From the NCBI GenBank assembly GCA_000372185.1, contig AQUA01000001.1, positions 1 through 64,000 on the forward strand: 64,000 nt of DNA, written 5' to 3'. Under the pieces are notes generated by a model that worked only from the letters and a program-made list of their open reading frames with translations, was not told the DNA's origin and did not search any database. The translations under genes and the position numbers were made by a program. Source of the DNA: an actinobacterium SCGC AAA278-O22 (GTDB taxonomy: Bacteria; Actinomycetota; Actinomycetes; Nanopelagicales; Nanopelagicaceae). This document shows, piece by piece, positions 40,561-58,636 of the stretch; position 1 is the first letter of the stretch, and the number at the start of each line of letters is the position of its first letter.

Positions 40561-40660
40561 TGGTGCCTATCGTAAACAGTCCTTGATAAAACTGCAATTT
40601 ATACTCGACCTGAAGAGAAATCTTCGAATGTTATGAAATTCCCTCGGCTACGATGACTTG

Positions 40661-41401
40661 ATGTCTCACTTAGTTTTGCTAGAGATGATGGGCGTCGGAC
40701 TCTTGGTTGGGCTGGCGAAAACCTCAATCGGGGGGCTTGGACTTCTGTGCGCCGCACTTCTCACACAAATTCTTCCTGCCAAAGAATCCACGGGTGTATT
40801 GCTCATCTTATTAATAATTGGCGACCTATTTGCTATTACAGCGTATAGAAAATATGTTGATTGGAAATTTCTCAGAACACTATTCATGCCAGTATTTGTA
40901 GGCTTAGTTTTTGGTGCGATTTTTCTTTCTCAATCTACTGATGAATCTTTAAAGAAGTTCATCGGGTGGGTAGTTGTGATATTGGTGATTCTCTATCCAT
41001 TAAGTCAGTATTGGCAGAAAAAAAATTCAGATCTGAACTCTCGATTTCCCCGGTTTCTTCGCCTGACTCTCGGGTCGACAGCTGGATTCATGAGCATGGT
41101 TGCCAATTCTGGTGGTACACCAATGAGTATCTATTTATTTCTTCGTCGCGAATCAGTAATGAACTTCTTAGCAAATTCGGCTTGGTTTTTCTTTATTGTT
41201 AACTTGATAAAGCTCCCCTTCACTATAGGTCTGGGAATTCTTGAGGTAACTTCATTTAAGTTTATTTTGCCTGCAATACCAGCGATAGCTGTAGGAGCAC
41301 TTATTGGAAAGAAAATCGTTTCACAAATCAATCAGAAAATATTTCAAAATTTGACTCTTATTTCAGCAGGTCTCGTAGGAATAAAATTGATACTCTCTTG
41401 A
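40661..41401 (+). CDS. TauE/SafE-family membrane transporter
   Basis: About 246 residues, seven to eight helices. GLLVGLAKTSIGGLGLLCAALL near the start and GFMSMVANSGGTPMSIYLFLR in the second half are the paired TauE/SafE (DUF81) motifs of putative sulfite or organo-anion exporters. ATG is taken one codon after the track's TTG. TACGAT ends six bases upstream with no ribosome site, suggesting leaderless expression. It lies at the left border of the inositol island; a functional link is not evident. Confidence 0.82.
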   Translation: MSHLVLLEMMGVGLLVGLAKTSIGGLGLLCAALLTQILPAKESTGVLLILLIIGDLFAITAYRKYVDWKFLRTLFMPVFVGLVFGAIFLSQSTDESLKKFIGWVVVILVILYPLSQYWQKKNSDLNSRFPRFLRLTLGSTAGFMSMVANSGGTPMSIYLFLRRESVMNFLANSAWFFFIVNLIKLPFTIGLGILEVTSFKFILPAIPAIAVGALIGKKIVSQINQKIFQNLTLISAGLVGIKLILS

Positions 41402-41514: not shown

Positions 41515-43005
41515 ATGAGCAACGTAGTAAATCATTGGATAAATGGTGCAGAATTTGTAAGTAAATCGGGTCGAACATCACCAGTTTATGATCCTGCACT
41601 TGGCACTGAAACAAAAAGAGTTGCTCTAGCCAATCAAACCGAGATAGATGCGGCCATCAAGGCGGCAAAAGATGCGTTCCCAGCTTGGAGAGACGCTTCA
41701 CTAGCCAAGCGTCAACAAGTTGTCTTTGCTTTCAGAGAATTGTTAAATTCCCGCAAAGGTGAACTTGCAGAAATCATTACGAGTGAACATGGGAAAGTAC
41801 TCTCTGATGCCCTTGGTGAGATTACACGTGGCCAGGAAGTAGTGGAATTCGCAACAGGTATCCCTCACTTGCTCAAAGGATTTTATTCAGAAAATGTTTC
41901 AACTGGTGTAGATGTCTACTCAACACGTCAACCACTTGGTGTTGTAGGAATCATTAGTCCATTTAACTTCCCAGCGATGGTACCTATGTGGTTCTTCCCC
42001 ATTGCAATTGCGGCAGGAAATACTGTAGTAATAAAGCCTTCTGAGAAAGATCCTTCAGCGTCAATATGGATTGCAAAGCTTTGGAAAGAAGCCGGCCTAC
42101 CTGATGGTGTTTTTAATGTACTTAATGGTGATAAAGAATCCGTAGATGGTTTACTCAATAGCCCAGATGTTGAGTCAATCTCATTCGTTGGTTCTACTCC
42201 GATTGCACAATATATTTATGAGGGAGCCTCTCGAACAGGCAAACGTGTCCAAGCTCTTGGTGGCGCTAAAAATCATATGTTGGTTTTACCTGATGCAGAT
42301 CTTGAGTTAGTTGCTGACTCTGCGATTAATGCTGGATTTGGTAGCGCTGGCGAACGTTGTATGGCAATTTCTGTAGTTGTAGCAGTTGAACCGGTAGCTG
42401 ATCAATTGATTTCCAAAATAGTAGATCGCATGAGCAAGCTACGCACCGGCGATGGTCGTCGTGGCTGTGATATGGGTCCACTTGTCACTAAAGAACATCG
42501 TGACAAAGTTGCGTCATATATTGAAGTTGCTGAAAAAGATGGTGCGACGGTAGTTGTCGATGGTCGAAACCCGAAAGTTGATGGCGAACCTAATGGCTTC
42601 TGGCTGGGACCAACACTTATCGACAAAGTTCCAACAACTTCTAAGGTCTACACAGAAGAAATTTTTGGTCCAGTACTCTCGATTGTTCGCGTCAAGAGCT
42701 ACGACGAAGGTGTTTCTCTGATTAATAGTGGTGCATTTGGAAATGGAACAGCAATCTTTACCAATGATGGTGGTGCTGCTCGTAGATTCCAAAATGAGAT
42801 TCAGGTAGGAATGGTTGGGATTAACGTTCCAATCCCTGTGCCTGTTGCATACTACTCATTTGGAGGCTGGAAGCAATCACTCTTCGGTGACACAAAAGCT
42901 CACGGTGTTGAAGGTGTTCACTTCTTCACCCGCGGCAAAGCAATTACTTCGCGTTGGCTTGATCCAAGCCACGGTGGAATTAACCTCGGTTTCCCACAGA
43001 ACTAA
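41515..43005 (+). CDS. iolA: Methylmalonate/malonate-semialdehyde dehydrogenase (CoA-acylating)
   Basis: It converts malonate semialdehyde to acetyl-CoA and CO2, the last step of inositol breakdown. The 496-residue ALDH fold has ISPFNFPAMVPMWFFPIAIAAGNTVV, ALGGAKNHMLVLPDAD and the catalytic Cys in GSAGERCMAIS. The MW-FFPIA and GAKNH forms distinguish CoA-acylating MMSDH from ordinary ALDHs. GGGGGA precedes the ATG. It heads the run iolA-iolB-TIM barrel-iolH-oxidoreductase with gaps of 2-33 bases. Confidence 0.95.
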   Translation: MSNVVNHWINGAEFVSKSGRTSPVYDPALGTETKRVALANQTEIDAAIKAAKDAFPAWRDASLAKRQQVVFAFRELLNSRKGELAEIITSEHGKVLSDALGEITRGQEVVEFATGIPHLLKGFYSENVSTGVDVYSTRQPLGVVGIISPFNFPAMVPMWFFPIAIAAGNTVVIKPSEKDPSASIWIAKLWKEAGLPDGVFNVLNGDKESVDGLLNSPDVESISFVGSTPIAQYIYEGASRTGKRVQALGGAKNHMLVLPDADLELVADSAINAGFGSAGERCMAISVVVAVEPVADQLISKIVDRMSKLRTGDGRRGCDMGPLVTKEHRDKVASYIEVAEKDGATVVVDGRNPKVDGEPNGFWLGPTLIDKVPTTSKVYTEEIFGPVLSIVRVKSYDEGVSLINSGAFGNGTAIFTNDGGAARRFQNEIQVGMVGINVPIPVPVAYYSFGGWKQSLFGDTKAHGVEGVHFFTRGKAITSRWLDPSHGGINLGFPQN

Positions 43006-43013
43006 TTACTTCC

Positions 43014-43928
43014 ATGTCCTCTCCTAACAAGTGGTACTTCCGTAAAGGTGAGTTGAAATCTGCTGTTTGGGAAGTCCATGTGGACGCAAATAATCCGCCG
43101 GCAAAACCTTGGGCCTCAACGGGCATTCGCGTGGGAAAACTCTCTTCAGGCGTATTCCTTGAATTACCGGCTGACAACAATGAGAGACTTATTTTTCCTC
43201 TTGAAGGTGAAAAAATATCAGTTCAATATCTTCTATCCAATTCAGATGAAATTCACACCCAAGTTCTAAGAGGTCGTAAGTCAGTCTTTCATGGTCCTTC
43301 TGATCTGCTATACCTTCCGATTAATACTCGAGCTTCCGTTTCGGGTCTCGGTCGTGTTCTTGTTAGTGAGTCACCTGCGAAAAACTCTAAGCCAGTGAAA
43401 TACATGCCAAAGGAAGATGTTCCTGTTGAGCTTCGAGGGGCTGGTCGTGAAACGAGACAGGTACATAACTTTGGATTGCCAGATGTTCTTGATGCGGATC
43501 GAATGATTGCAGTAGAAGTTATCGTTCCGGCAGGTAACTGGTCAGGTTCACCGGCTCATAAGCACGATACATATGTGCCGGGAAAAGAATCAAATCTGGA
43601 AGAAATATATTATTTTGAATCAGCGGTGTCACGAGGTTTAGAGACTCCAGTCTCCTCCAATCCATTTGGTATTTTCAGAGGTATTTCAGCTGATAATCGG
43701 CCGTACGATATAAATGAAGAAATACATTCTGGAGATGTCGTATTAGTGCCATATGGATGGCACGGCCCAGCAGCAGCAGGACCTGGATATGACTTGTACT
43801 TCTTTAATGTAATGGCTGGCCCTGACCCAGATCGTGAATGGAATCTCACTGACCACCCAGATCAAGCTTGGATCCGCAAATCGTGGGAAACGCAAAAAAC
43901 GGACTCTCGACTACCTTACAAAGCATAA
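43014..43928 (+). CDS. iolB: 5-deoxy-glucuronate isomerase
   Basis: It isomerises 5-deoxy-D-glucuronate to 2-deoxy-5-keto-D-gluconate. 304 residues of bicupin fold with family motifs GRETRQVHNFGL, VPAGNWSGSPAHKHD (metal His) and NLEEIYYFE, and VPYGWHGPAAAGPGYDLYFFNVMAGP near the end. It lies eight bases after iolA. Its product is the substrate of the kinase IolC in the classical pathway, which is not in the window. Confidence 0.95.
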   Translation: MSSPNKWYFRKGELKSAVWEVHVDANNPPAKPWASTGIRVGKLSSGVFLELPADNNERLIFPLEGEKISVQYLLSNSDEIHTQVLRGRKSVFHGPSDLLYLPINTRASVSGLGRVLVSESPAKNSKPVKYMPKEDVPVELRGAGRETRQVHNFGLPDVLDADRMIAVEVIVPAGNWSGSPAHKHDTYVPGKESNLEEIYYFESAVSRGLETPVSSNPFGIFRGISADNRPYDINEEIHSGDVVLVPYGWHGPAAAGPGYDLYFFNVMAGPDPDREWNLTDHPDQAWIRKSWETQKTDSRLPYKA

Positions 43929-43940
43929 AAGGAGCAAAGA

Positions 43941-44855
43941 ATGACTCAGCAAATTCGCGTAGGAACTGCACCAGATTCGTGGGGCGTTTGGTTTCCAAGC
44001 GAGCCGACACAAGTTCCATGGGATCGCTTCCTTGATGAAGTTGAGGCTTCCGGATATCACTGGATTGAATTAGGACCATTTGGATATCTTCCTACAGATC
44101 CAAAAAGGCTTGAAGATGAACTGGGTAAGAGAAATCTCAAACTTACGGCAGGAACTGTCTTTACAGGATTTCACAAACTGGATGAGAGTCAATGGCAACG
44201 AGCTTGGGATCAAGCACTAGCTGTTGCAAATCTTGTTTCTAAACTTGATGTTAAGCATCTAGTAGTGATCCCAGATTTGTGGCGAGATCCACAAACTGGT
44301 GACGCACAGGAATCTCGAACATTATCTAATGAACAATGGAAGAGACTTGCCGCTGGGCATGACAAACTCGGGAAAGCACTACTGGAAGAATTTGATATTC
44401 GCCAGCAATTCCACTCTCACGCAGATAGTCATATTGGAACTTATCAAGAAGTAGAGAGATTTTTAGAAGAAACGAATAAGGATTACACCAATCTATGTCT
44501 CGATACTGGTCATTTTGCCTATTACCTTGGTGATAACGTCAAGTTGATGAACGCCTACCCTGAGCGGATTGGATACCTACATCTTAAGCAAGTGCATCCA
44601 GATATTTTGGCTAATGCACTTAAGAATGACCTTCCATTCGTTGAGGCTGTAGCTCAAGGTGTTATGACTGAACCCGGCTTCGAAGGTGTTCCAAAATTTG
44701 CACCTATTATCGAAAAAGCACTAGAAATCAATCCTGAGATTTTCGCAATTATTGAGCAGGATATGTATGGCTGCTCGATGGATATGCCATTCCCAATTGC
44801 ACAACGTACCCGTGAACATATTTTGGCAACTACCCGAGCTGCCCGAGTCAAGTAA
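43941..44855 (+). CDS. Sugar phosphate isomerase/epimerase (IolE-like TIM barrel)
   Basis: 304 residues of the xylose-isomerase-like (AP-endonuclease 2) fold. The opening RVGTAPDSWGVWFP and WIELGPFGYLPTDP resemble IolE but differ from the clear IolE later in the cluster. Metal-ligand candidates are QQFHSHADSHIGT, CLDTGHFAYYLGD, GYLHLKQVHPD and IEQDMYG. It may be a dehydratase or epimerase for another inosose or keto-inositol. AAAGGAG lies before the start. Confidence 0.8.
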   Translation: MTQQIRVGTAPDSWGVWFPSEPTQVPWDRFLDEVEASGYHWIELGPFGYLPTDPKRLEDELGKRNLKLTAGTVFTGFHKLDESQWQRAWDQALAVANLVSKLDVKHLVVIPDLWRDPQTGDAQESRTLSNEQWKRLAAGHDKLGKALLEEFDIRQQFHSHADSHIGTYQEVERFLEETNKDYTNLCLDTGHFAYYLGDNVKLMNAYPERIGYLHLKQVHPDILANALKNDLPFVEAVAQGVMTEPGFEGVPKFAPIIEKALEINPEIFAIIEQDMYGCSMDMPFPIAQRTREHILATTRAARVK

Positions 44856-44888
44856 TTCTGCTAAAAAGACTATCGACTGGAGAAAAAG

Positions 44889-45758
44889 ATGAAAATCGCA
44901 TTAGACCCAACACCTTTCCACCACACTCATAAGCTTTTGGAATTTCCTGCTGTAGCTGCAGAATTAGGGTTCAAATACCTTCAGATGACTCCACATCCTG
45001 ATTTCATTCCATTTTTTAATCATCCGAAAGCGGATGACAGCCTGGTCAAAAAAATGAAGCAAGCATGTAAGGACTCAGGGGTGGAAATTGCATCCGTGCT
45101 TCCCGTATTGCGATGGTCTGGTCCTGATGAAGATGCGAGAGAAGCGGCTATCCGTTACTGGAAGCGCGCAATTCAAATTACCGTAGATCTAGGTGTGAAA
45201 ACTATGAATACCGAATTCTCGGGTCGGCCCGAAAGAGCGGAAGAATCAGAACGTGCCTTCTATAGATCAATGGAAGAGTTGTTGCCCATCATTGAACGCG
45301 AAGGTCTAGATGTATTAATTGACCCACATCCAGATGATTTTGTGGAAGATGGGTTACAAGCAATTCGTACTATCCGCGGAGTAAACTCTAAAAATATTGG
45401 ACTAGTTTATGTCGCGTCTCACACCTTCCACATGAATCAACCTCCATTGACGATCATGCGTGAGGCGGGTGAAATGCTCCGATTGGTGCATGTATCTGAC
45501 ACAATGGACCATAAACGTTCACATGGGCTTCGCTACATTACGAACCCTCCCGGAAACTCTGTGAGAGTACATCAGCATCTTAAAATTGGGGATGGCGATG
45601 TGAATTGGCCAGAATTCTTTGGCGGCCTCAAAGAGATAGGGTTCCTAGATAATCCAAATAGCGTGATGTGTTCATCCATCTTTGCTGAAAATGAAAAAAA
45701 TAAAGAAACTGCAAAATACCAACTCGCAAAAATTCAAGAAATGATTGAGGTCAATTAG
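44889..45758 (+). CDS. iolH: IolH-like sugar phosphate isomerase/epimerase
   Basis: 289 residues of the same TIM-barrel superfamily. KIALDPTPFHHTHKLLEFPAVAAELGF, TPHPDFIPFFNHPKAD and IASVLPVLRWSGPDEDAREAAIRYWKRAIQ match the actinobacterial IolH group. Metal-binding residues are in NTEFSGRPE, LIDPHPDDFVEDG and LVHVSDTMDHKRSHG. IolH's exact reaction is not firmly established. It is two bases from the next oxidoreductase. Confidence 0.82.
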   Translation: MKIALDPTPFHHTHKLLEFPAVAAELGFKYLQMTPHPDFIPFFNHPKADDSLVKKMKQACKDSGVEIASVLPVLRWSGPDEDAREAAIRYWKRAIQITVDLGVKTMNTEFSGRPERAEESERAFYRSMEELLPIIEREGLDVLIDPHPDDFVEDGLQAIRTIRGVNSKNIGLVYVASHTFHMNQPPLTIMREAGEMLRLVHVSDTMDHKRSHGLRYITNPPGNSVRVHQHLKIGDGDVNWPEFFGGLKEIGFLDNPNSVMCSSIFAENEKNKETAKYQLAKIQEMIEVN

Positions 45759-45760
45759 TT

Positions 45761-46936
45761 ATGTCAAAGATTGGAGTAGCAGTAATTGGGGCTGGAATGG
45801 TTGGGAGGGCCCATGCTGCTGGATTTCGTGCCGCAAGCACAGTATACGGTCCCGGTTTACCAGAAATTGATTTGGTCACAATCGCAGACCTCAATGCTGA
45901 GTTTGCGCAAGATTCTGCGAGACGATTTGGTTATCGCAACTCTGAAACTGATTGGAGGACAATACTTTCCGATTCCAGCATTCAAGTGGTGAGTGTTGCT
46001 GTTGCCAACTCGCTACATCGGGAAATATCAGAAGCACTTCTGAAAGCAGGAAAACATGTTCTTTGTGAAAAACCATTAGCTCCATCAACTGCGGATGCCC
46101 GAGCGATGGTTGAGACCGCTAAAAAGGCAAAAGATTTGCATGCAGGGACTGGATTCACTTTCCGAAGATCCCCTGCGATAGGCGCAATCAAAAACGAATT
46201 AGAAAATGGCAACCTTGGGAAACCGTACTTTTTTAACGGTCATTATTGGTGTGATTATGCGGCTGATTCGTCTCGGCCAATGTCATGGAGGTATAAAGGC
46301 GGTCCTGGTTCTGGCGCGCTAGCTGACATTGGCTCACACGTTGTAGATCTAGCGGAATTTATGTTTGGGGAGATTGAATCAGTCTCTGGTGCTGTATTAA
46401 CCACTTTTACTCAAAGGCGGGCTCTACCATCTGGTACTGCTATGGGTCATGCAGCGACTTCTCTCTCAGATGTTTACGAAGATGTTGAAAACGAAGATCT
46501 TGTTACCTTTATTGCAAAATTTAAAAGTGGTGCAACCGGAACTTTTAGTTCCTCACGAGTGGCCCACGGTCTAGCAAATGGACTTGGATTTGAAATTCAC
46601 ACGGAAAAAGGTGCTGCAACTTTTGATCTAGGTCGCATGGGAGAATTCGGATACTTCGATAGTACGACACCACATCAAACTTCGGGATATCGTCAAGCAT
46701 TTATTGGGCCGGATCACCCATATATAGCTGGAGGTATGGCGATGGATTTCCCAACCGTTAATTACGGTCAAAATGACCTGTTTGTCTGGCAAGCACGAGC
46801 TTTTCTAGAGCAAGTTGCTGGATTAAGCAGACTACCTAAAGTAGCTACCTTTGAAGAAGGTCTTCGTAATTTAATAATCTTGGATTCAATTGTTGAATCG
46901 GCGCTCCACAATGGAATTGAAGTTAAAATCAAGTAG
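45761..46936 (+). CDS. Gfo/Idh/MocA oxidoreductase (inositol dehydrogenase-like)
   Basis: 391 residues. Rossmann start GVAVIGAGMVGRAHAAGFRAA, catalytic EKP loop in HVLCEKPLAPSTADA, and C-domain DIGSHVVDLAEFMFG. The ~390-residue length and GHYWCDYAADSS...MSWRYKGG block are shared with the homologue at 59563 and typical of scyllo-inositol or other inositol dehydrogenases. It ends the iolA operon and overlaps lacI tail to tail by eight bases. Confidence 0.85.
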   Translation: MSKIGVAVIGAGMVGRAHAAGFRAASTVYGPGLPEIDLVTIADLNAEFAQDSARRFGYRNSETDWRTILSDSSIQVVSVAVANSLHREISEALLKAGKHVLCEKPLAPSTADARAMVETAKKAKDLHAGTGFTFRRSPAIGAIKNELENGNLGKPYFFNGHYWCDYAADSSRPMSWRYKGGPGSGALADIGSHVVDLAEFMFGEIESVSGAVLTTFTQRRALPSGTAMGHAATSLSDVYEDVENEDLVTFIAKFKSGATGTFSSSRVAHGLANGLGFEIHTEKGAATFDLGRMGEFGYFDSTTPHQTSGYRQAFIGPDHPYIAGGMAMDFPTVNYGQNDLFVWQARAFLEQVAGLSRLPKVATFEEGLRNLIILDSIVESALHNGIEVKIK

Positions 46937-47939
46937 ATCTACGAATAATCAACTCCAGTGGTAAAAATATTTCACGTGGTTCCGACATAAGTGGATCTTT
47001 AATAAGTTTGTTCACAAGCAACGCCGCTTCTTTCCCTGAACCGTGAAGTTGTTGTTTTACAGTGGTAAGCCCCATGTAATCAGCGATATCGATATCATCA
47101 AAGCCCACTACACCCAAATCTCCTGGTACCTTGATTCCCAATTCCTCGGCGGCTCTCAGGACTCCAAGTGCGTTAATGTCTACTCCACAAAATAAAGCAT
47201 CTGGCCGGTTTGAACTCTTGAGTAACTCAGTTGCCTTAATTCTCGAGTCTTCAATACTGTAATCGGGAGTAATAATTAATTCAGGATTTACCTTTCTCCC
47301 ATTTTCAAGAAGTGTATTGATATATCCCTGTTCTCTTTCTTTAGAAGGATTTGAAGAATAACTAGGAAGAGGATTAAAGCCGACATATCCAATATTTTTA
47401 TAGCCTCTGTCAATCAGATGCTGGACTCCTAGTCGCGCACCCTCAGAATTATCTACTTTGAAAGATGTGAAACGGGTGTCTGAAGTCTCAATAAGTGTAG
47501 TTGGAAATTTAGTGGAAGAAATGCGAGTCAAATCTTGTCCATTTACTGGAAGCGACATGATAATCAAACCGTCATATCTACCAGAAGATGCTAAAGAATC
47601 GAGAAATTTATTGTTCTGCGGATTTAAAATCTTTTGAGCATCGATCTGAAAAATAATTAACTCAGATTGTAACTCGTCAAGAGCAGAGGAAATTCCCTGC
47701 AGCCTTTGCGTAAAACCAGGATAGGTATTAAGTGGAGCAACTACTGCAATTCGATCATTATGATGTCTCGCTCGTGCCGCCGCTTCAAGATCTGGTGTGT
47801 ATGACAATTTGTGAACAGCTTCCATGACTCGCGAACGTGTCGCTTCAGAAACTCGGTGAGGCTTATTTAATGTTCGACTCACAGTGGCAATTGACACTCC
47901 TGCCAAGGCAGCTACTTCATAAATCGAGGATTTGGGCAC
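46929..47939 (-). CDS. LacI-family transcriptional regulator
   Basis: 336 residues: helix-turn-helix SSIYEVAALAGVSIATVSRTLNKPHRVSEAT at the N-terminus and a periplasmic-binding-like effector domain (RIAVVAPLN, GVDINALGVLRAAEELGIKVPGDLGVVGFDD). Its location between two inositol operons makes it the likely local regulator, with an inositol-type ligand. The divergent region holds TTACA repeats that recur at other island promoters. Confidence 0.93.
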   Translation of the reverse strand: MPKSSIYEVAALAGVSIATVSRTLNKPHRVSEATRSRVMEAVHKLSYTPDLEAAARARHHNDRIAVVAPLNTYPGFTQRLQGISSALDELQSELIIFQIDAQKILNPQNNKFLDSLASSGRYDGLIIMSLPVNGQDLTRISSTKFPTTLIETSDTRFTSFKVDNSEGARLGVQHLIDRGYKNIGYVGFNPLPSYSSNPSKEREQGYINTLLENGRKVNPELIITPDYSIEDSRIKATELLKSSNRPDALFCGVDINALGVLRAAEELGIKVPGDLGVVGFDDIDIADYMGLTTVKQQLHGSGKEAALLVNKLIKDPLMSEPREIFLPLELIIRRST

Positions 47940-48164: not shown

Positions 48165-49163
48165 ATGCATATCGGAGTTTATACAGCAGTCTTGCATGAT
48201 CGTGATATTGATTCTGCCCTAGATGTAATCAAAGGATTGGGACTTAATGGAGCAGAAATCAATTCTGGCGGCTTTCTTCCTCCGGTGCATTTACCAATTG
48301 ATGACATTATGAACTCTGATGTCAAACGAGATGAATACTTGGACAAGTTTTCTTCTCGTGGAATTAAGTTGACTGCCCTTAATTGTAACGGAAATCCTTT
48401 GAGTCCAAATAAAGCAGTTGGACAACGTCAATCACAAGATGTAATAGATGCAGTCAAGATTGCAAATCGTCTCGGAGTTGATCGCGTTATTACGATGTCA
48501 GGTTTACCAGCTGCAGAATCAACAGGTTCTCGAGCTGCTTGGTATGTAAATCCTTGGAGTTCTGAACACATGGATGCCCTTGACTACCAATGGAATGAAG
48601 TAGCGATTCCATTTTGGCAGAAGGTTGATAAAGTTGCCGAAGAGAACGGTGTAAAAGTTGGTCTTGAAATGCATCCTCAGAATGTTGTATTCAACCCTTC
48701 TACGATGCTTCGCTTGGTAGAAAAGGGAAATCTTAGAAATATTGGCGCCGAAATGGATCCTTCTCATTTATTTTGGCAGCAAATTGATCCAATACATGCA
48801 CTAGAGGTACTCGGGGAATTGGTTTATTGCGCAGCGGCGAAAGATGTTCGAATTAATCCTGGAGTAAAGATTCATGGCGTATTAGACGATCGATTTACAA
48901 GAATCCCGCGCGAGCAAAATCCACTTCCACTTTCTCACGATGGTCAATTCGTCGTAAATCAATGGCCAAAAGACTCTGCTTGGGATTTCGTGGCTCTTGG
49001 AGAGGGTCACGATCAGGCATTCTGGACTAAGTTTCTGCAAACTCTTGCAAAGACTAGCCCTAAGACTGACATCGCGATTGAACATGAAGATGCATCATTC
49101 AGTCGGGAAGAAGGTTTGAGAATCGCGGCAAATGTTCTGAAGACTGCATATGCTGCTCTCTAA
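48165..49163 (+). CDS. Sugar phosphate isomerase/epimerase (TIM barrel)
   Basis: 332 residues. HIGVYTAVLHDRDIDSALDVIKGLGLNGAEINSGG opens the barrel; VGLEMHPQNVVFNPSTMLRLVE, GAEMDPSHLFWQQ, CAAAKDVRIN and DIAIEHEDASF carry the metal Glu, Asp and His residues. It belongs to a group found with inositol/sugar Gfo-Idh enzymes and may be an isomerase or epimerase of a keto-cyclitol. First gene of a plus-strand run with the transaldolase-like gene and two oxidoreductases. Confidence 0.83.
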   Translation: MHIGVYTAVLHDRDIDSALDVIKGLGLNGAEINSGGFLPPVHLPIDDIMNSDVKRDEYLDKFSSRGIKLTALNCNGNPLSPNKAVGQRQSQDVIDAVKIANRLGVDRVITMSGLPAAESTGSRAAWYVNPWSSEHMDALDYQWNEVAIPFWQKVDKVAEENGVKVGLEMHPQNVVFNPSTMLRLVEKGNLRNIGAEMDPSHLFWQQIDPIHALEVLGELVYCAAAKDVRINPGVKIHGVLDDRFTRIPREQNPLPLSHDGQFVVNQWPKDSAWDFVALGEGHDQAFWTKFLQTLAKTSPKTDIAIEHEDASFSREEGLRIAANVLKTAYAAL

Positions 49164-49233
49164 GAGGGTATTAGCCTTTACTCAATTCAATTTAATTTTC
49201 ACCGGCAGCTTAAACATTCAATAAGGAGATTAA

Positions 49234-50310
49234 ATGTCAGATTCGCCATTCATCTACATGAAAGAGCATTCAAAAACAGTTCTCTGGAACGATTCAGCTG
49301 ATCCCAAGGAAATTAAGGATGCTCTCACATGGGGGATTGTAGGAGCAACATGTAATCCTGTGATTGCATTGACGGCACTGAAAGCCGATAAAGAGTATTG
49401 GGTGGCCAGAATCAAGGAATTTGCGAAAGCAAATCCTCAGACAACAGACGATCAAATTGGATGGGCTATGGTCAAGGAGCTTTCATCCAATGCGGCCAAG
49501 TTATTTGAACCAGAGTTCGAAAAGCAGAATGGACGAAATGGCAGGCTTTCAATTCAGACGGACCCTCGAAACTTTCGAGATGCAAATCTTCTTGCGTCGC
49601 AGGCAGTTGAATTTTCAAAAATTGCAAAAAATATGATTGTAAAAATTCCAGTCACTTCAGAAGCAATTGCGGCTTTTGAAGAAGCGACCTATCAGGGCGT
49701 AAGCATCAATGCAACGGTTTCCTTTTCAGTCGCCCAAACTGTTGCTGTTGCCGAAGCCGTCGAACGAGGACTTAAGCGTCGTGAAGCTGAGGGCTTAGAT
49801 ATTTCCCAGATGGGACCCGTCTGTACAATCATGGTGGGACGCGTTGATGACTGGGTAAAGGTTTCAGCTGAAAAAGCAGGAGCAGTGATAGATCCAGGAA
49901 TCATGGAGTGGGCAGGTGTTGCCGTCTTTAGAAATGCGCACAAAGTATATGAGCAACGTGGATATCGCACACGATTACTTTCCGCGGCATTCCGCAATCA
50001 CATGCATTGGTCAGGAATCCTTGGGGGGGACTCTGTTATTTCTCCACCTTACTCTTGGCAGGTAAAAATCAACAAATCTGGAATTATCCCGAATTTAAAC
50101 AGCGTCGAAGAACCAATTGAAAATCGAATTCTTGAGCCTATGTTAGAGAAACTTCCTGAATTTAGAAAGATGTACGACGTAGACGGACTAAAAGCCGAAG
50201 AGTTTACAAATTTTGGTGCAACTCAACGAACGTTGCGCGGCTTCTTGCAATCGGTAAATGATCTCGAGTCGTTTGTGAGAGATGTGACTGTCCCGAATCC
50301 CGATAAATAG
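49234..50310 (+). CDS. Transaldolase-family protein with aldolase-like active site
   Basis: 358 residues. The class I barrel shows the N-terminal Asp (WNDSADPKEI, Asp20), GATCNPVIALT, the Schiff-base Lys137 in NMIVKIPVTSEA, Asn159 in SINATVSFSVAQ, and phosphate-binding Arg203 (MVGRVDDW) and Arg254 (AAFRNHMHW). The catalytic Glu of transaldolases is replaced by Gln108 (GRLSIQTDP). Fructose-6-phosphate aldolase also has Gln here (GRLFAQV), and this position separates aldolase from transferase chemistry. The enzyme should cleave or transfer a dihydroxyacetone unit. In this cluster the fitting substrate is 2-deoxy-5-ketogluconate or its phosphate. AAGGAG precedes the start. Confidence 0.85.
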   Translation: MSDSPFIYMKEHSKTVLWNDSADPKEIKDALTWGIVGATCNPVIALTALKADKEYWVARIKEFAKANPQTTDDQIGWAMVKELSSNAAKLFEPEFEKQNGRNGRLSIQTDPRNFRDANLLASQAVEFSKIAKNMIVKIPVTSEAIAAFEEATYQGVSINATVSFSVAQTVAVAEAVERGLKRREAEGLDISQMGPVCTIMVGRVDDWVKVSAEKAGAVIDPGIMEWAGVAVFRNAHKVYEQRGYRTRLLSAAFRNHMHWSGILGGDSVISPPYSWQVKINKSGIIPNLNSVEEPIENRILEPMLEKLPEFRKMYDVDGLKAEEFTNFGATQRTLRGFLQSVNDLESFVRDVTVPNPDK

Positions 50311-50320
50311 GCGTTTTGAG

Positions 50321-51343
50321 ATGCATCAGTTACCTCAACCCCATATTTTTCATGATTCAGAATCTAGGCCGCTTCGTTGGGGAATTTTTGGAGCGGGATG
50401 GATTTCAGATGCCATGGTTAAAACTGCAAAGAAAAATTCGCATCAGGACTTTGTAGCGGTTGCTTCGCGAACTCCAAATAAGGCAGAAGTCTTTGCACAT
50501 AAATGGAACTTGCCATCTTTTTACACATCATACGAAGAGTTAGTAAATCGTGATGACATTGATGCGATTTACATAGGAACATTGCCATCTGATCGACTTG
50601 AAGTTGCATTAATTGCTATCAATGCAGGTAAGCACGTTCTGATTGAAAAGCCAATTACTATGGATCTCGCTGCGGCCGAAGAAATATACAGAGCTTCAAA
50701 GGCTAAAAAAGTACTAGCTGTTGAAGCTATGTGGACCAGGTTTCTTCCTCAGATGGATATAGCTAGACAATTGCTTTCCAATGGAGATCTCGGTGAAATT
50801 GAATTAGTAATTTCAAATTTCTGCCAAGCGAATTTGGAGGTTCCTCGATTATTCACTCCAGGTGGCGGGAACCCGATAATCGATATGGGAATCTACCCAA
50901 TTGCCTTTTCTCAGCAATTCCTGGGTGAACCTGAAGAGATACATGCATTTGGTCAACTTCATCAGAACCAAATAGATGAGGAAACACATGCGTTTATGCG
51001 ATATTCAAATGGAGCCCGTTCCAATTTCGTTCTTTCAGCACGAACCGGTTTACCCCACTGGGCAGGAGTTTCAGGAACAAAAGGAGCGCTTACCTTTGGT
51101 ACTCCCTTCTTCACTCCCACATCCATAACTTTTCACGAACCTGGATTTAACGGCACACAAACTTCTTGGATTGATAATTTGGACATTCCAGAGCATGAAG
51201 GTCTGATACATCAGGTGCATGCATTTGCTCAATACGTTGAACAGGGATTTTTTGAAGCACCTCTCTATACCCATGAAGAGTCTCTTTCCAATATTAAAAC
51301 TGCAATCACTATAGGAGAACTAATAGGAACAAGCTTTAAGTGA
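50321..51343 (+). CDS. Gfo/Idh/MocA oxidoreductase (dihydrodiol dehydrogenase-like)
   Basis: 340 residues. LRWGIFGAGWISDAMVKTAKK is the NAD(P) site, HVLIEKPITMDLAAA the catalytic loop, and VEAMWTRFLPQM and IIDMGIYPIAFSQQFLG are typical of the dimeric dihydrodiol/xylose dehydrogenase subgroup. It is a paralogue of the next gene (shared EAMWTRFLP and DLGIYP/DMGIYP). Ten bases after the transaldolase-like gene. Confidence 0.85.
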   Translation: MHQLPQPHIFHDSESRPLRWGIFGAGWISDAMVKTAKKNSHQDFVAVASRTPNKAEVFAHKWNLPSFYTSYEELVNRDDIDAIYIGTLPSDRLEVALIAINAGKHVLIEKPITMDLAAAEEIYRASKAKKVLAVEAMWTRFLPQMDIARQLLSNGDLGEIELVISNFCQANLEVPRLFTPGGGNPIIDMGIYPIAFSQQFLGEPEEIHAFGQLHQNQIDEETHAFMRYSNGARSNFVLSARTGLPHWAGVSGTKGALTFGTPFFTPTSITFHEPGFNGTQTSWIDNLDIPEHEGLIHQVHAFAQYVEQGFFEAPLYTHEESLSNIKTAITIGELIGTSFK

Positions 51344-51346
51344 GAC

Positions 51347-51352
51347 TATAAT
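51347..51352 (+). promoter_or_regulatory. Consensus -10 box directly before an ATG
   Basis: TATAAT stands five bases before the ATG of the second paralogue, with no ribosome site between. This is the clearest leaderless-promoter candidate in the window and would let the gene be expressed apart from its upstream neighbour. The -35 region is weak. Confidence 0.55.
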
Positions 51353-51357
51353 TAACC

Positions 51358-52338
51358 ATGACAAATTTGCGATGGGGCTTTCTTGGTAATGGTTGGATTG
51401 CAACGGTCTTGGCAAAAGATTTTGCACATGCAGGTTTGACTATTCAAAGTGTAGGTGCCCGGACTCAAGAGAAAGCTGAAGACTTCGGAAATCAGTTTTC
51501 TATTCCAAATCGCCACCCTAGCTACGAAGCGCTTGTAAACGATGATGAAGTAGACATTGTTTATATCGCCACGCCTCATACGCGTCATCATCAAGATGCC
51601 CTTTTAGCTATCAAAGCTGGAAAGCATGTATTGCTTGAAAAACCATTTACCGTAAATGCTCGGGAAGCCAAAGAAGTAATTGATGCAGCAAAGTCAATGA
51701 ATGTATTCATTATGGAAGCTATGTGGACTCGGTTCTTGCCGGTTCAATCTGCAATTCAAGAGGTTATAAAAAAGGGATTGATTGGCCGACCTCGTTACAT
51801 CGTGGCAGAACATAGCCAAGAGTTAACGTCTAAGCCTCGGCTTTGGGATCCTGAATTGGGCGGAGGAACACTACTAGATCTTGGAATATATCCTTTAAAC
51901 TTCATTGTCAGAATCTTAGGGGTGCCAAGTAAGGTGACTGCCAAAGCGCATCTCACTACCGATAAGGTTGATGAATCACTTTCTGCGATACTGGAATATC
52001 CTTCAGATGCAATGGCGACATTTTTCTCTAGTATGTCTGCGACTGGTCCGGCAAATGCCTCTATCATGGGAAGTAAGGGTCGAATTGACCTCGATTATCG
52101 CCTGCTCGAACAGACTACTTTCAGGGTATATAACAATGAGGCAGAAATAATTCATTCCTACTCTGAAGAAATATTAGGGACAGGTCGCCAATATCAGGCT
52201 CTAGAAGTCGAGCGGTGCATCAAGGCGGGTCAAAATGAATCACCTACAATGAGTCACAAGGACACAATCGATATTCTTAAGCTTACAGACGAAATGCGAT
52301 CTCAAGTAGGTGTTACCTACAAGAATGATCGCATTTAA
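51358..52338 (+). CDS. Gfo/Idh/MocA oxidoreductase (paralogue of upstream gene)
   Basis: 326 residues. LRWGFLGNGWIATVLAKDFAHAG, HVLLEKPFTVNAREA, MEAMWTRFLPVQS and LLDLGIYPLNFIVRILG repeat the layout of the preceding gene, so the pair arose by duplication. Substrate unknown; a sugar or cyclitol is likely from context. It has its own TATAAT and converges on the ABC ATPase with a 24-base gap. Confidence 0.85.
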   Translation: MTNLRWGFLGNGWIATVLAKDFAHAGLTIQSVGARTQEKAEDFGNQFSIPNRHPSYEALVNDDEVDIVYIATPHTRHHQDALLAIKAGKHVLLEKPFTVNAREAKEVIDAAKSMNVFIMEAMWTRFLPVQSAIQEVIKKGLIGRPRYIVAEHSQELTSKPRLWDPELGGGTLLDLGIYPLNFIVRILGVPSKVTAKAHLTTDKVDESLSAILEYPSDAMATFFSSMSATGPANASIMGSKGRIDLDYRLLEQTTFRVYNNEAEIIHSYSEEILGTGRQYQALEVERCIKAGQNESPTMSHKDTIDILKLTDEMRSQVGVTYKNDRI

Positions 52339-52362: not shown

Positions 52363-53181
52363 TTAATTACTAGAACTTCCAGTCAACTCTTCGATTTCCT
52401 TTTCAAGATCTGCCATAGCTTCGCCACCAGCCATAAGATCGATGATCTGCTCGCGGGTACGTTCACCTTTGCGGAAATCATCTGCCTTCTCGCCATGGAT
52501 GAGGACCGCAAAGTGATCACCCACTGCTAAGGCATGCGTAACATTGTGAGTAATTAGAATTACCGCAATGCCCTTCTGGCGTGCTTGCATAATGATTCTG
52601 AGGACGTGAGACGACTCCTTCACTCCAAGCGCCGCAGTTGGCTCATCTAGAATTAGAACTTTTGCGCCAAAATGTACAGCACGCGCAATCGCAGACACTT
52701 GACGCTCACCACCGGACAGCGAACCAATAAGACGTTCACCATCAGTAACACGAGTGATTCCCATTGCCTGCATTTCACGCACAACAACTTCATTTGAATA
52801 TTTCCGATCAATGCGCTTAAAAGGTCCCCATCCTTTCGTTGGTTCGAGCCCAACAAAGAACGAGCGACCTAATGACATCAATGGGAATGTTCCACCAAAT
52901 TGGTGAACAGTTGCAATTCCTAATTCATTAGCATCACGTGGTGATTTGAAGGCTATCTTTTCACCTTGCCACTCAAGTGTTCCTGAAGTAGGTTCGTGAA
53001 ATCCAGAAATCACTTTGATCGCAGTCGATTTTCCAGCCCCATTATCTCCGAGTAGGCAGAGAACCTCACCTGGAAATACATCGATTGACACTTTATGAAG
53101 AGCTCGATATCCAGAGAAATTTTTTGAGATGTCTGTCAGCCTCATTATTGGCCGAACATTATTTTTTGAATTCGTTGACAT
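52363..53181 (-). CDS. Sugar ABC transporter ATP-binding protein (CUT2, single domain)
   Basis: 272 residues with Walker A LLGDNGAGKSTAIKVI, signature LSGGERQVSAIARAV and Walker B VLILDEPTAALG. CUT2 ATPases such as RbsA usually have two fused domains (~500 residues); this is the single-domain FrcA-like form, which would work as a homodimer. FGGTFPLMSLGRSFFVG replaces the usual Q-loop region text. It lies five bases after the permease. Confidence 0.92.
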   Translation of the reverse strand: MSTNSKNNVRPIMRLTDISKNFSGYRALHKVSIDVFPGEVLCLLGDNGAGKSTAIKVISGFHEPTSGTLEWQGEKIAFKSPRDANELGIATVHQFGGTFPLMSLGRSFFVGLEPTKGWGPFKRIDRKYSNEVVVREMQAMGITRVTDGERLIGSLSGGERQVSAIARAVHFGAKVLILDEPTAALGVKESSHVLRIIMQARQKGIAVILITHNVTHALAVGDHFAVLIHGEKADDFRKGERTREQIIDLMAGGEAMADLEKEIEELTGSSSN

Positions 53182-53186
53182 GATTT

Positions 53187-54200
53187 CTATGCACCTTTCT
53201 TGCTCTTGCCAGAGATGGCCAATCTACGGAAAGTATTGTTTGTGAGAACAGCAATCAACAAGAGAACTCCAAGAATTAATGAAGCCCAATCCGATTCCCA
53301 ACCTGTGTAATAGATGCCTTGGTTCACAATAGCGAATGTCATGGCTCCAAGAATTACGCCCACGGTTGATCCATAACCACCTGTGAGTAGCACCCCGCCA
53401 ACTACAACTGCGATGATTGAGTTGAAGACGAAAGATTGACCCGCATTTACTTGTGCGCTCTCATAAAGAATTGTCTGCATAACACCTACAAGTGATGCCG
53501 CAAAACCTGAGGCTGTAAAGAGAGATATCCGAACTTTATCCACGGGAATACCTGTCAGGCGTGCAGAAATAGCATCACCGCCAATTGCATAGATCCAGTT
53601 TCCCCACGGGCTCTTATAGAGAATCCATGAAACGATTCCTGCCACAACTAACCAAATAATAATTGCAGTTTCGAATTGTTCAAATAGATAAGTACCTAGG
53701 ATTGTCTTAGATAAATGATCAGGTTTAATACTTACTGCGACTGTGCCCGTTATGAGCTTACAAAGTCCGAGCATTAATCCGAAAACAGCAAAATTAGTTG
53801 CAAGCGTAACCACAAATGAAGGTAGGTTAGTACGTACAACAATTAAGCCATTTAAAAAACCAATAAAGGTACCTAGCGCTAATCCAGAAAAAATTCCCAC
53901 TGCGGTCGGAAGATTGAAGTAGCCAGAGAGAACTGCAGTAGTTACGCCTCCAGCAGCGAGAGTCGATCCCACAGAGAGGTCCAGATCACCAGCAATCATT
54001 ACCAGCGCGACCGGTAGTGCAATAATGCCAAGCTCTGCGGCGATATTTAGCCAACTGGCCGTTCCAGCAAGTGCAATGAAGTTCTCGCCTCCGAAAATAG
54101 CAAAGAAAATGTATATGACAACGAGCCCAATCAAGGCTCCAAACTCGGGACGACGAATAAATGAACTTAAATTGTACTTCGACCGAAAATTTCCAGCCAT
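53187..54200 (-). CDS. Sugar ABC transporter permease (CUT2)
   Basis: About 337 residues, eight to ten helices. The track start is 15 codons too long; GGAG lies eight bases before the ATG used here. IALPVALVMIAGDLDLSVGSTLAAGG is the hallmark CUT2 permease segment, with GLVNGLIVVRTNLPSFVVTLAT-like text (GFLNGLIVVRTNLPSFVVTL) and GGDAISARLTGIPVDKVRI, the ATPase-contact loop. Context suggests an inositol substrate. Confidence 0.92.
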   Translation of the reverse strand: MAGNFRSKYNLSSFIRRPEFGALIGLVVIYIFFAIFGGENFIALAGTASWLNIAAELGIIALPVALVMIAGDLDLSVGSTLAAGGVTTAVLSGYFNLPTAVGIFSGLALGTFIGFLNGLIVVRTNLPSFVVTLATNFAVFGLMLGLCKLITGTVAVSIKPDHLSKTILGTYLFEQFETAIIIWLVVAGIVSWILYKSPWGNWIYAIGGDAISARLTGIPVDKVRISLFTASGFAASLVGVMQTILYESAQVNAGQSFVFNSIIAVVVGGVLLTGGYGSTVGVILGAMTFAIVNQGIYYTGWESDWASLILGVLLLIAVLTNNTFRRLAISGKSKKGA

Positions 54201-54236
54201 TCTATGAACTCCAATTTTACTCGTTAAGAAGATATT

Positions 54237-54270
54237 AGGTTGCACCGGCTCGGGCGAGCCGGTGCAACCT
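54237..54270 (-). promoter_or_regulatory. 16-bp perfect hairpin after the binding-protein gene
   Basis: AGGTTGCACCGGCTCG / CGAGCCGGTGCAACCT with a two-base centre, between binding protein and permease, and no U-tract on the minus strand. Probably an mRNA-stabilising or partial-attenuation stem that raises binding protein over permease, as in the opp operon. Confidence 0.78.
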
Positions 54271-54297
54271 AAATCTTAGGCCACTACTTCCAGTAAA

Positions 54298-55278
54298 TTA
54301 GCGCTGACCACTCTTTGCCGCACCAATAATCACCGCTGCATTTTCCTTGGTAACCAATGAAGGTCCCGTTAGGAATTCAGTGGTGCCTGGGAGCATTCCA
54401 AATGCCACCCATGTAAATGCATAGTTGACTACCTGGTAGCCCTGCAACCAGCCAAGCTGATCTACAGCTGCTGTTGACTTTCCATCACGGATACGCTCCA
54501 AAATATTTGGAGAAACGTCCCATGAACCAAGTTGAGCCTTGCTCTTTGCAGCTTCGATTCCTGCATTCGCAGCATCTGTATCAACAGAAGCAATTGTAAA
54601 TACAGCATCGATTGTTGCATCAGTGGTCAAAGCACCCTTTACAGCGTTTGAAATTGCAGTTGCATCGCCAAACTTTGTCGCAGGAAGTTCGAGAGTTTCG
54701 CCCTTACCGCCACCTGACTTCATGCCTTCTGCCATACCATCGCAGCGCTGCTTAATGTTTGCAGATCCTGGTGATGTATTAATGCAAAGACCATGCTTTG
54801 CGCCCTTGCTTGCCAAGTACTTTCCTAGAGTAATTCCGGCTTGGTACTCATTTGTTCCGATGTATGCCTTTGCACCTGTCGCTTCAAGTTGTTCCTGCCC
54901 AGCGTTATAAAGAAAGACAGGAATCCCTGCAGCGATTGCCTTCTTAATTTCTGGATTCTGTGCGGATGAAACCCAGTTAGGTAGCGCTAGCGCATCTGGC
55001 TTTTGTGAAACGGCTGTGCGGATTAGCTTTACCATATCTGGTCCTACGTTGTCGTAATTCTTCAAGCCGACATACTTAACTGACACTCCAGCCTGTAATG
55101 CAGGACCAGAAGCAGCCTTAACGCCATTCTTCACAATAGCGAAGAATGCATCTCCACCACCAAGAACAATGACTGTTTTCTTTGCTGCTGCATGTGATGC
55201 AGGTGCACTAAGACCTGTCAGTGCAAGTGCAGCAGCAGAAAATGCGACTGCAATTTTTAGAGAACGTGAAATCTTCAC
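54298..55278 (-). CDS. Sugar ABC transporter substrate-binding protein (CUT2)
   Basis: 326 residues, periplasmic-binding-protein type 1 fold. A Sec signal KISRSLKIAVAFSAAALALTGLSAPASHAAAKK ends at Ala-X-Ala and has no lipobox Cys. The mature protein shows VIVLGGGDAFFAIVKNGVKAA, KPDALALPNWV, IPVFLYNAGQEQ and YIGTNEYQAG. Together with the permease and ATPase it forms a complete importer; inositol or a related cyclitol is inferred from the cluster. Confidence 0.9.
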   Translation of the reverse strand: MKISRSLKIAVAFSAAALALTGLSAPASHAAAKKTVIVLGGGDAFFAIVKNGVKAASGPALQAGVSVKYVGLKNYDNVGPDMVKLIRTAVSQKPDALALPNWVSSAQNPEIKKAIAAGIPVFLYNAGQEQLEATGAKAYIGTNEYQAGITLGKYLASKGAKHGLCINTSPGSANIKQRCDGMAEGMKSGGGKGETLELPATKFGDATAISNAVKGALTTDATIDAVFTIASVDTDAANAGIEAAKSKAQLGSWDVSPNILERIRDGKSTAAVDQLGWLQGYQVVNYAFTWVAFGMLPGTTEFLTGPSLVTKENAAVIIGAAKSGQR

Positions 55279-55582
55279 TATTCATACCTTTCGTAAGATC
55301 TACTAGTTTAATTTCGAATTAAACTATTTCGACTCAGAAATTTTCTGGCCGAGCCATCCCCGCACTTTGCACTTGTAATTTCATTTACAAAGCGTTGGTT
55401 AAGTTGTGCAAAATTAACACTTGTAAACAAATGTAAGAACTTTACTTGGCATCGTTATCAGAATGTTATGACATTAATGAGCGCAATTTTGGAATGTCCA
55501 AGCACAAAATTTGGCAAATGTAATCAAATAAAAAAACTTGGCTCTAACTTAGAGAGCCTAGGTAGCGCAGAATCTAAAAGAT
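55279..55582 (-). promoter_or_regulatory. Promoter region of the ABC importer with TTACA repeats
   Basis: The 304-bp gap has no ORF. It holds TTGTAA-tttcat-TTACAA (55373-55390) and TTGTAAACAAATGTAA (55421-55436). The latter is the exact reverse complement of the 16-mer at 48072. On the minus strand it reads as TTACA at a 10-bp period. The left part just before the binding-protein start is AT-rich. Confidence 0.6.
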
Positions 55583-56593
55583 TTAAAGGTAGAAACTTGG
55601 TTTCTGCTCATACTTCACCGAACAAATCGCTCCACTCTTAAGTGCTTCTAGTCCTGCGGCAACTGCAGCGGCCGCGAGATAACCATCCCAGGCACTTGGA
55701 CCATCGAATTTCCTTGTTCTAATCGAATTAATCCATTGCTGTAATTCAAAATTAAATGCATCGGCGAATCGAGACTTGAATGAAACATGCTCCGGCGTTG
55801 AAATTGCTCCCTCGAAAAATTGTGTCATTCCAGAAGTTCGACCAATTTCTGCTATTCCCTTTTCGAAAACAGCCTCTGTCTTAACTTGATACCCAAATTG
55901 AACAGAGACATTCATTTCGACGCTAGCTAATACACCGGAATCAGTTTCAAGTAGGACAAGAATTGGTTCTTGAAGTCGTTCTGGTGAAAGTGAATTTCGT
56001 TTCAAATGACGTACTTGAACAGTTTTTATTGGGGAATCTGTTAGGAAGCGCACCACATCTATTTCATGGACTACAGAATCAAAAATCAACATCTCATTGT
56101 GATATGAATCTGGAACACTCGGATTTCGGTGTGCGCAATGTAATCCCAATAACTCGCCTTGTTTTTTGCTAGCTATCAGACTCTTGAGTTCCATGTAGCC
56201 AACGTCATATCTACGCATGAACCCTACTTGAATTAGTTTTCTTCCTTTGGCAATTTCTGCATTGACTATTCTGAGTGAGGAATCAGGATCAGGGGTTAAT
56301 GGTTTTTCACAGAGGATCGGTAATCCGTATTCAAGAACTGGGAGAATAACCGGTTCATGAAATTGTCCAGGCGTTGCAATAAGAACCGCATCCATGGCCT
56401 TGGACTCTAGGGCCGACTCAATAGTAGGAAACCATTGAGCGTTTGGCGAAATTTGAAGTGCAGTTCTAGCACGAGATTCATCTGGCTCCACAATGGCAGA
56501 AACAGAAGCCCCGGTTATACTATTTTCAAATCTCGCTACATGCTCAAGACCAATAAAACCAGTCCCCACAACTCCAACTCTTACATCACTCAT
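55583..56593 (-). CDS. Gfo/Idh/MocA oxidoreductase (IolG-like)
   Basis: 336 residues. VRVGVVGTGFIGLEHVARFENS, LPILCEKPLTPDPDS and QVGFMRRYDVGYMELKSLI match inositol 2-dehydrogenase-type enzymes; HNEMLIFDSVVHEIDVVRFL holds the catalytic Asp-x-x-x-His pair. Likely oxidises an inositol isomer. Divergent from a second IolG across a 143-bp region with a TTACA direct repeat. Confidence 0.87.
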   Translation of the reverse strand: MSDVRVGVVGTGFIGLEHVARFENSITGASVSAIVEPDESRARTALQISPNAQWFPTIESALESKAMDAVLIATPGQFHEPVILPVLEYGLPILCEKPLTPDPDSSLRIVNAEIAKGRKLIQVGFMRRYDVGYMELKSLIASKKQGELLGLHCAHRNPSVPDSYHNEMLIFDSVVHEIDVVRFLTDSPIKTVQVRHLKRNSLSPERLQEPILVLLETDSGVLASVEMNVSVQFGYQVKTEAVFEKGIAEIGRTSGMTQFFEGAISTPEHVSFKSRFADAFNFELQQWINSIRTRKFDGPSAWDGYLAAAAVAAGLEALKSGAICSVKYEQKPSFYL

Positions 56594-56663
56594 AACTTAT
56601 TCCCTCATCTTGGGTTGTTCAAAATATGCAGTAGGGTAGCAAGAAATTTCTGACGAAAACTGA

Positions 56664-56680
56664 TGTAAGAGAATGTAAGA
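56664..56680. promoter_or_regulatory. TGTAAGA direct repeat between the two iolG-like genes
   Basis: TGTAAGA at 56664 and 56674, a 10-bp period; on the minus strand TTACATTCTCTTACA. It matches the TTACA-N5-TTACA pattern of the sites at 48072 and 55421 and can serve both divergent genes. Confidence 0.6.
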
Positions 56681-56736
56681 AGATGAAAGCGGAATCTTTA
56701 ATTGATTAGTTGAATTCTGGTGAGTAGAGTCTGCAC

Positions 56737-57744: not shown

Positions 57745-57745
57745 T

Positions 57746-58633: not shown

Positions 58634-58636
58634 TCT

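Follow-up and report, generated by a model that had tools for sequence, protein, structure and literature searches.

A divergent transaldolase proposed to cleave 2-deoxy-5-keto-D-gluconate in inositol breakdown without IolC and IolJ

Our analysis suggests that a divergent transaldolase breaks the carbon-carbon bond in an inositol pathway that runs independently of IolC and IolJ. By TAL we mean the protein of the open reading frame at 49234-50310 (+) of the window, the whole 64-kb stretch of DNA that was analysed, together with its subfamily orthologues; DKG stands for 2-deoxy-5-keto-D-gluconate, GAP for glyceraldehyde-3-phosphate and F6P for fructose-6-phosphate. On comparative grounds we consider it fairly probable that TAL passes the dihydroxyacetone unit of DKG to GAP, thereby taking the place of IolC as well as IolJ. 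A broader statement strikes us as evenly balanced, namely that Actinobacteria, Acidobacteria and Chloroflexi have a widespread second inositol route via TAL acting on unphosphorylated DKG, and that in streamlined freshwater actinobacteria TAL serves as the transaldolase of the pentose phosphate pathway too. Labels beginning with G denote genomes (G000 being the window's assembly), L loci, C contigs, and g1 and g25 genera.

The gene, its neighbours and its active site

IolG, IolE, IolD, IolB and IolA are encoded within 22 kb of the window, and the DKG kinase and DKG-6-P aldolase alone are wanting. The features are as follows.

40658-41401, + strand: TauE/SafE-type permease upstream of iolA
41515-43005, + strand: IolA, CoA-acylating (methyl)malonate-semialdehyde dehydrogenase (TIGR01722, 676 bits)
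43014-43928, + strand: IolB, 5-deoxy-glucuronate isomerase (TIGR04378, 201 bits, cut-off 205)
43941-44855, + strand: IolE-type inosose dehydratase (the Clavibacter iol operon encodes an IolE-type protein 70% identical to its 88% orthologues)
44889-45758, + strand: TIM-barrel isomerase in the iolA-iolB-iolE operon
45761-46936, + strand: Gfo/Idh dehydrogenase that closes the iolA operon
46929-47939, - strand: LacI-type regulator, divergent from the TAL operon
48165-49163, + strand: TIM-barrel isomerase/epimerase (PF01261) that opens the TAL operon, with a 70-bp gap before TAL
49234-50310, + strand: TAL, divergent transaldolase of 358 aa, Gln108/Thr198/Met200 subfamily (start ATG, PF00923)
50321-51343, + strand: Gfo/Idh/MocA dehydrogenase, 10 bp downstream of TAL
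51358-52338, + strand: second Gfo/Idh dehydrogenase of the TAL operon
55583-56593, - strand: IolG-like inositol dehydrogenase
56737-57744, + strand: IolG, inositol 2-dehydrogenase (TIGR04380, 366 bits, above cut-off)
57746-58633, - strand: second IolE-like dehydratase
61539-63533, - strand: IolD, trihydroxycyclohexane-dione hydrolase (TIGR04377, 751 bits, above cut-off)

TAL comes second in the gene run TIM barrel-TAL-Gfo-Gfo, which spans 48165-52338. On its 5' side lies iolA-iolB-iolE-TIM-Gfo (41515-46936), so that the IolA which a preliminary description of this DNA had placed in the same island is indeed there; on its 3' side, with strands mixed, lie a sugar ABC transporter, two iolG genes, the second iolE and iolD. 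Two of these neighbours recur beside TAL elsewhere, the Gfo/Idh/MocA gene in G002, G018, G183, G188, G231, G232, G257 and G278, and a homologue of the LacI-type regulator (65-71%) in G087 and G169. A homologue of the TauE/SafE permease stands immediately upstream of TAL in G001, G029, G012, G189 and G200 (e.g. L069 13390-14130), and permease and TAL may perhaps be linked through a common metabolite. Separately, a second inositol-type block occupies 52363-63999 and continues into L066 1-2937 (C1:64001-66937), in the order IolG, IolG, IolE, 2-hydroxyacid dehydrogenase, Gfo, HpaI-type aldolase, IolD, aldehyde dehydrogenase, LacI; this order is kept in genus g25 and, for the most part, in G295. 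The block may be an oxidative route, in which the aldehyde dehydrogenase would act on 5-deoxyglucuronate and HpaI would then give hydroxypyruvate and malonate semialdehyde.

A profile search places TAL in the transaldolase/FSA superfamily (PF00923, 128 bits, cut-off 27), and under all NCBIfam transaldolase and FSA equivalog cut-offs, both those for canonical transaldolase, EC 2.2.1.2 (PRK03343, the top match, 123 of 367 bits; TIGR00876, 80 of 234; TIGR00874, 57 of 396), and that for FSA (TIGR00875, 43.5 of 246). The solved folds nearest to the AlphaFold2 model of TAL (pLDDT 94.3) are full-length transaldolases, from Neisseria (Z 39.8) and C. glutamicum (Z 38.7); structures of BmSF-TAL and FSA rank behind with Z 21-22, over the barrel. 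In the tree that the preliminary description called for, a branch supported at 100% separates the TAL subfamily from canonical transaldolases. Relatives of TAL number at least 500 in GTDB contigs and, as judged by sequence, the subfamily is large and separate from the canonical enzymes.

The active-site set of the superfamily (D20, N41, K137, N159, T161) is present in TAL. Lys137, Asn41, Thr161, Asn159, Arg203, Arg254 and Gln108 are unchanged in 83 of 83 subfamily members and Asp20 in 80 of 83, which bears out the earlier claim that Lys137, Asp20, Asn159, Arg203 and Arg254 are retained. Gln108 was also correctly placed at the site of the catalytic Glu: alignment with the C. glutamicum transaldolase 3r5e sets GRLSIQTDPR of TAL against GRVSIEVDPR, a true Glu-to-Gln change. 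What that reading had overlooked are two further changes, Thr198 and Met200, likewise invariant in the 83 members and equivalent to Ser176 to Thr and Phe178 to Met in TalB numbering; all 44 canonical transaldolases compared have Glu, Ser and Phe at TAL positions 108, 198 and 200.

Distribution of TAL, IolC and the partner aldolases

The gap in the cluster, already noted in the preliminary description as the lack of iolC and iolJ, holds up. No tblastn match to IolC or to Cgl0159, the actinobacterial partner aldolase, was found within the 64-kb window, and the full-genome search that had been suggested found no true iolC and no PF22649 (Cgl0159) in the window's whole assembly (G000, 1.14 Mb, 75% complete). 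The top iolC_N match there, 109 bits against a cut-off of 300, is a PfkB protein on contig C2, which we discarded as iolC, being KDG-kinase-like (NF041633, 283 bits); a class II aldolase 11 kb from it, away from iol genes, was discarded as iolJ, being GatY/FBA-like. Since G000 is 75% complete, we judged the absence of iolC and Cgl0159 on near-complete relatives: G183, G188 and G278 (single contig, 99% complete) and G002 and G257 (97-98%). The aldolase search covered IolJ-type proteins and Cgl0159; DUF2090 is known only as a fusion to IolC.

Among relatives in the order Nanopelagicales, G183, G188 and G278 carry an iolA-iolB-iolD-iolE-TAL-gfo-iolG operon whose genes lie a few to about 40 bp apart, and G002, G231, G232 and G257 have the same gene set with small insertions, with pieces of it in G018. 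Other arrangements are iolA-iolB-iolD-TAL (G167), iolA-iolB-iolD-iolE2-TAL (G156, G169) and iolA-iolB-iolD-lacI-TAL (G087). None of these genomes has a true iolC anywhere, and in those searched there is no Cgl0159 (PF22649) either, so that the classical combination of iolC with an IolJ-type or Cgl0159 aldolase was not found in the TAL-operon genomes searched. Genes of 297-302 aa beside TAL operons or iolB were considered as hidden kinases and rejected, being EamA transporters, an arginase-family protein and TrhO.

The exchange can be followed site by site. The sister genomes G168, G243 and G282 have iolC with homologous iolA-iolB-iolD and no TAL, and in genus g25 the iolC-Cgl0159-iolB of G078 corresponds to iolB alone at the same place in TAL-bearing G068, G070 and G075. 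PF22649 (Cgl0159) occurs only in genomes that also carry iolC. In actinobacterial iol clusters a Cgl0159-like PF22649 protein directly follows iolC (L229 15255-16130, L078 10052-10942); this protein probably serves Actinobacteria as DKG-6-P aldolase. The iolC-iolA-iolB-iolD operons of G282 (L231) and G168 (L230) lie in genomes with neither Cgl0159 nor TAL.

Could the classical route persist with enzymes that escape recognition, another PfkB kinase and a class II FBA, while TAL acts on a different step or on a cyclitol-derived ketose? Other PfkB kinases are present in all genomes examined and a class II FBA in most, an FBA may serve where iolC occurs without Cgl0159 (G168, G282), and TAL and iolC stand together in some clusters. 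Against this, iolC or iolC-Cgl0159 is exchanged for TAL at one site after another, no kinase gene was found in the compact TAL-iol operons searched, and IolB and IolA are kept, framing DKG and malonate semialdehyde. We regard this explanation as very improbable.

The survey of the order covered 296 genomes, those more than 90% complete being taken as good. TAL occurs in 51, iolD in 74 and true iolC in 36. TAL is accompanied by iolD in 45 of 51 genomes (Fisher p 7e-27, shared ancestry ignored), and in 26 of the 26 good ones. The iolD-bearing genomes divide into 36 with TAL only, 23 with iolC only, 9 with both and 6 with neither (p 7e-7, again ignoring shared ancestry), G061, G082 and G100 being examples of the last; within them TAL and iolC tend to be mutually exclusive. 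On the IolD tree the iolC state changes at least 12 times, and a sign test of TAL against iolC gives 4.8 independent opposite-direction pairs to 1.0 same (p about 0.2, few pairs), so that with ancestry controlled the exclusion goes in the right direction and is suggestive only. The expected co-occurrence of TAL with iol genes in genomes lacking iolC and iolJ is thus seen in the TAL-operon genomes and fails in the 9 of 45 genomes with TAL and iolD that also have iolC.

Perhaps TAL is simply an ordinary transaldolase of the pentose phosphate pathway that has taken over from the canonical gene, and lies among iol genes only incidentally. Canonical Tal is found in no TAL-bearing genome of genera g1 and g25 (e.g. 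G183-G186, G188, G189, G278, G001, G002). Moreover, TAL lies away from iol genes in genus g25 and in the G001/G184-G186/G189/G200 clade, whose genomes, like some others, combine TAL with iolC and have TAL beside non-iol genes, often a TauE-type permease. We nevertheless find an incidental neighbourhood unlikely, in view of the operon linkage of TAL to iol genes across several genera and phyla, the iolD found in every good TAL-bearing genome, the three active-site positions altered together, and the canonical Tal that coexists with TAL in G087, G156, G169, G289, G291-G293, G296, G298 and G299. In the TAL tree, iol-unlinked copies are nested within iol-linked ones, and for this reason the inositol linkage looks older than the unlinked state. 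Several TAL-free genomes of g1 and g25 (G005, G035) lack PF00923 proteins altogether.

TAL is linked to iolA, iolB, iolD, iolE and iolG in unrelated lineages as well. In Acidobacteria it lies in or beside iolG-iolE-iolD-iolB clusters (L290, L294, L295, L303, L306, L309, L310, L313, L315, L316), with iolA also present in L294, L295 and L303, and it accompanies iol genes in a Chloroflexi MAG (L311) and two Actinomycetes (L298, L318). Of the genomes with such clusters, iolC_N at E 1e-35 finds nothing in G325, G328, G329, G333, G334, G336, G340 or G341, and in G331, G335, G337, G338 and G342 no more than weak PfkB matches of 132-186 bits against the cut-off of 300. These genomes, most of them MAGs without a completeness figure, measure 3-11 Mb, so the absence of iolC is not a matter of streamlining. 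TAL and iolC do share a cluster in L284 (iolD-iolA-TAL-iolC-iolB), L288 (iolC-Cgl0159-iolB-iolD-TAL), L317 and Clavibacter pCI3; the absence of iolC where TAL is present therefore stands for the TAL-operon genomes and breaks down in some relatives. Two Shinella plasmids (L129, L130, 11812-13032 in each) encode a transaldolase with the Gln/Thr/Met signature, about 31% identical to TAL, in an operon of E1 alpha, E1 beta, TAL, E2, E3, phosphatase and triose-phosphate isomerase; these relatives were discarded as inositol genes, the operon being acetoin-dehydrogenase-like with no iol genes around.

The proposed reaction

How could a transaldolase take the place of a kinase and an aldolase? IolB produces DKG and IolA consumes malonate semialdehyde, and these two enzymes, both retained, flank precisely the missing step. 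Written from C6, DKG is CH2OH-CO-CHOH-CHOH-CH2-COOH, with both carbinol carbons configured as C3 and C4 of fructose; being a 2-ketose of this configuration, it should be cleavable by a transaldolase unmodified. Transaldolases need the hydroxyl at the dihydroxyacetone end unphosphorylated, as it is in DKG, and it is just this hydroxyl that IolC phosphorylates. Since IolC would block the group that is needed, a transaldolase fits only without IolC, which agrees with iolC and its aldolase having been lost together.

What our data show are the gene, its fold and residues, its neighbourhoods and the pattern of presence and absence; the substrate, acceptor and products that we assign to TAL are inferred. 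IolG, IolE, IolD and IolB would yield DKG, whose keto carbon would form a Schiff base with Lys137 of TAL. Malonate semialdehyde would be released from this Schiff base and converted to acetyl-CoA by IolA, and the dihydroxyacetone left on TAL would be handed to GAP, giving F6P. TAL alone would thus cover the work of the kinase IolC and the aldolase IolJ. The comparative data favour the core idea of the preliminary description, that a transaldolase fold fills the iolC/iolJ gap. Of its two versions, replacement of both enzymes via the unphosphorylated acid is the preferred one, and replacement of IolJ only is disfavoured, since iolC is lacking as well and a transaldolase acts on a dihydroxyacetone end that carries no phosphate.

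Alternatively, TAL could be an FSA-like free aldolase that splits DKG into malonate semialdehyde and free dihydroxyacetone, which would then be phosphorylated or reduced. All 83 members have the FSA-type Gln at the Glu96 position; Gln59, Thr109 and Tyr131 organise the water of FSA, and residue swaps interconvert aldolase and transaldolase, for which Stellmacher et al. are cited (PMC13259622). Structures of engineered TalB E96Q and E96Q/F178Y are also on record. Yet the position of FSA Tyr131 is Met200 in TAL, and the DHA kinase Dak1 is missing from 31 of 38 TAL-bearing genomes searched (absent, for instance, from G183, G278, G002, G231, G257, G167 and nine genomes outside the order; present in G188, G232, G156 and four others). 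Free cleavage would, besides, leave the loss of canonical Tal in TAL-bearing g1 and g25 genomes unexplained. We therefore think it rather unlikely, and Gln108 by itself is not enough to make TAL a free aldolase; transfer to a sugar phosphate, which had been offered as an option, appears the likelier course on account of Met200, the missing Dak1 and the TAL-bearing g1 and g25 genomes without canonical transaldolase.

The same absence of canonical Tal from g1 and g25, with canonical Tal found order-wide in 12 of the 51 genomes with TAL and in 196 of the 245 without it (p 2e-14, shared ancestry ignored), suggests that TAL has real transferase activity, and TAL may be dual-purpose, acting also as an ordinary transaldolase where the canonical one is missing (two genera). 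The coexistence of both in G087, G156 and G169 speaks for a special role of TAL. We count against the proposed transfer from DKG that some clusters and genomes contain TAL together with iolC, that TAL lies off iol genes in g25 and the G001/G184 clade, and that DKG has a carboxylate where F6P has a longer phosphate arm.

Phytate, the chief phosphorus reserve of plants, is the source of inositol, and the scoring of genomes for inositol breakdown relies on iolC among its core genes. If our proposal is right, lake actinobacteria and soil Acidobacteria of this kind would be scored as inositol-negative or gapped, and TAL would be a second natural example, after sulfoglycolysis, of a transaldolase employed in catabolic carbon-carbon cleavage. 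As a natural Glu-to-Gln transaldolase, TAL should moreover be useful for studying how aldolases and transaldolases diverged.

Comparison with known systems

We found no description of a transaldolase in inositol breakdown in the open-access literature, the scope of our search (subscription papers fell outside it). A large iol survey treats iolC as a core gene, and a term search of its text yields no transaldolase; a TAL form would be missed by it (PMC9430895). IolJ is the only DKG-6-P aldolase listed by Price et al. (2022), who put forward DUF2090 as a further one; among the 15 inositol users that they checked, IolJ was found in none and DUF2090 in no more than 7 (PMC9007349). For part of these users, the TAL route would offer a testable answer to the question of the cleaving enzyme. 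TAL would stand at the same place between IolB and IolA as IolC with IolJ, IolC-DUF2090 or IolC with Cgl0159, and it replaces iolC among the same neighbours; it differs from the classical enzymes in being unrelated in sequence and, as we infer, in dispensing with the kinase step and taking unphosphorylated DKG.

Within its own superfamily, TAL shares with FSA the Gln at the acid-base position and a common fold core (Z 21 to the TAL model), but has Met in place of Tyr131 and 358 aa rather than 220. With the canonical actinobacterial transaldolase (TIGR00876 tal_mycobact, 3r5e) it shares the full-length fold and the Lys, Asp, Asn, Thr and first Arg, though only about 25-33% identity, the changes Glu to Gln, Ser to Thr and Phe to Met holding throughout TAL.

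The parallel to the transaldolase of sulfoglycolysis, drawn in the preliminary description, seems apt as an analogy. SftT/BmSF-TAL removes the dihydroxyacetone portion, which bears no phosphate, from a non-standard ketose and joins it to GAP; the products are F6P and an aldehyde with an acid group (PMC11659671). With about 220 aa, SftT is short, of the FSA type and decameric, and its substrate is a sulfonate sugar, while TAL has 358 aa, lies in inositol clusters, is nearest to the C. glutamicum and Neisseria transaldolases and would give a carboxylate product. TAL falls outside the BmSF-TAL family (phmmer 28.8 bits over 75 residues), and none of its neighbours was recognised as sulfoglycolytic; the TAL model nevertheless aligns with BmSF-TAL over 198 residues (Z 22). 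Thus, with a transaldolase fold and the same type of transfer as we propose for TAL, SftT of the sulfo-TAL pathway would be the known system closest to it in its way of working.
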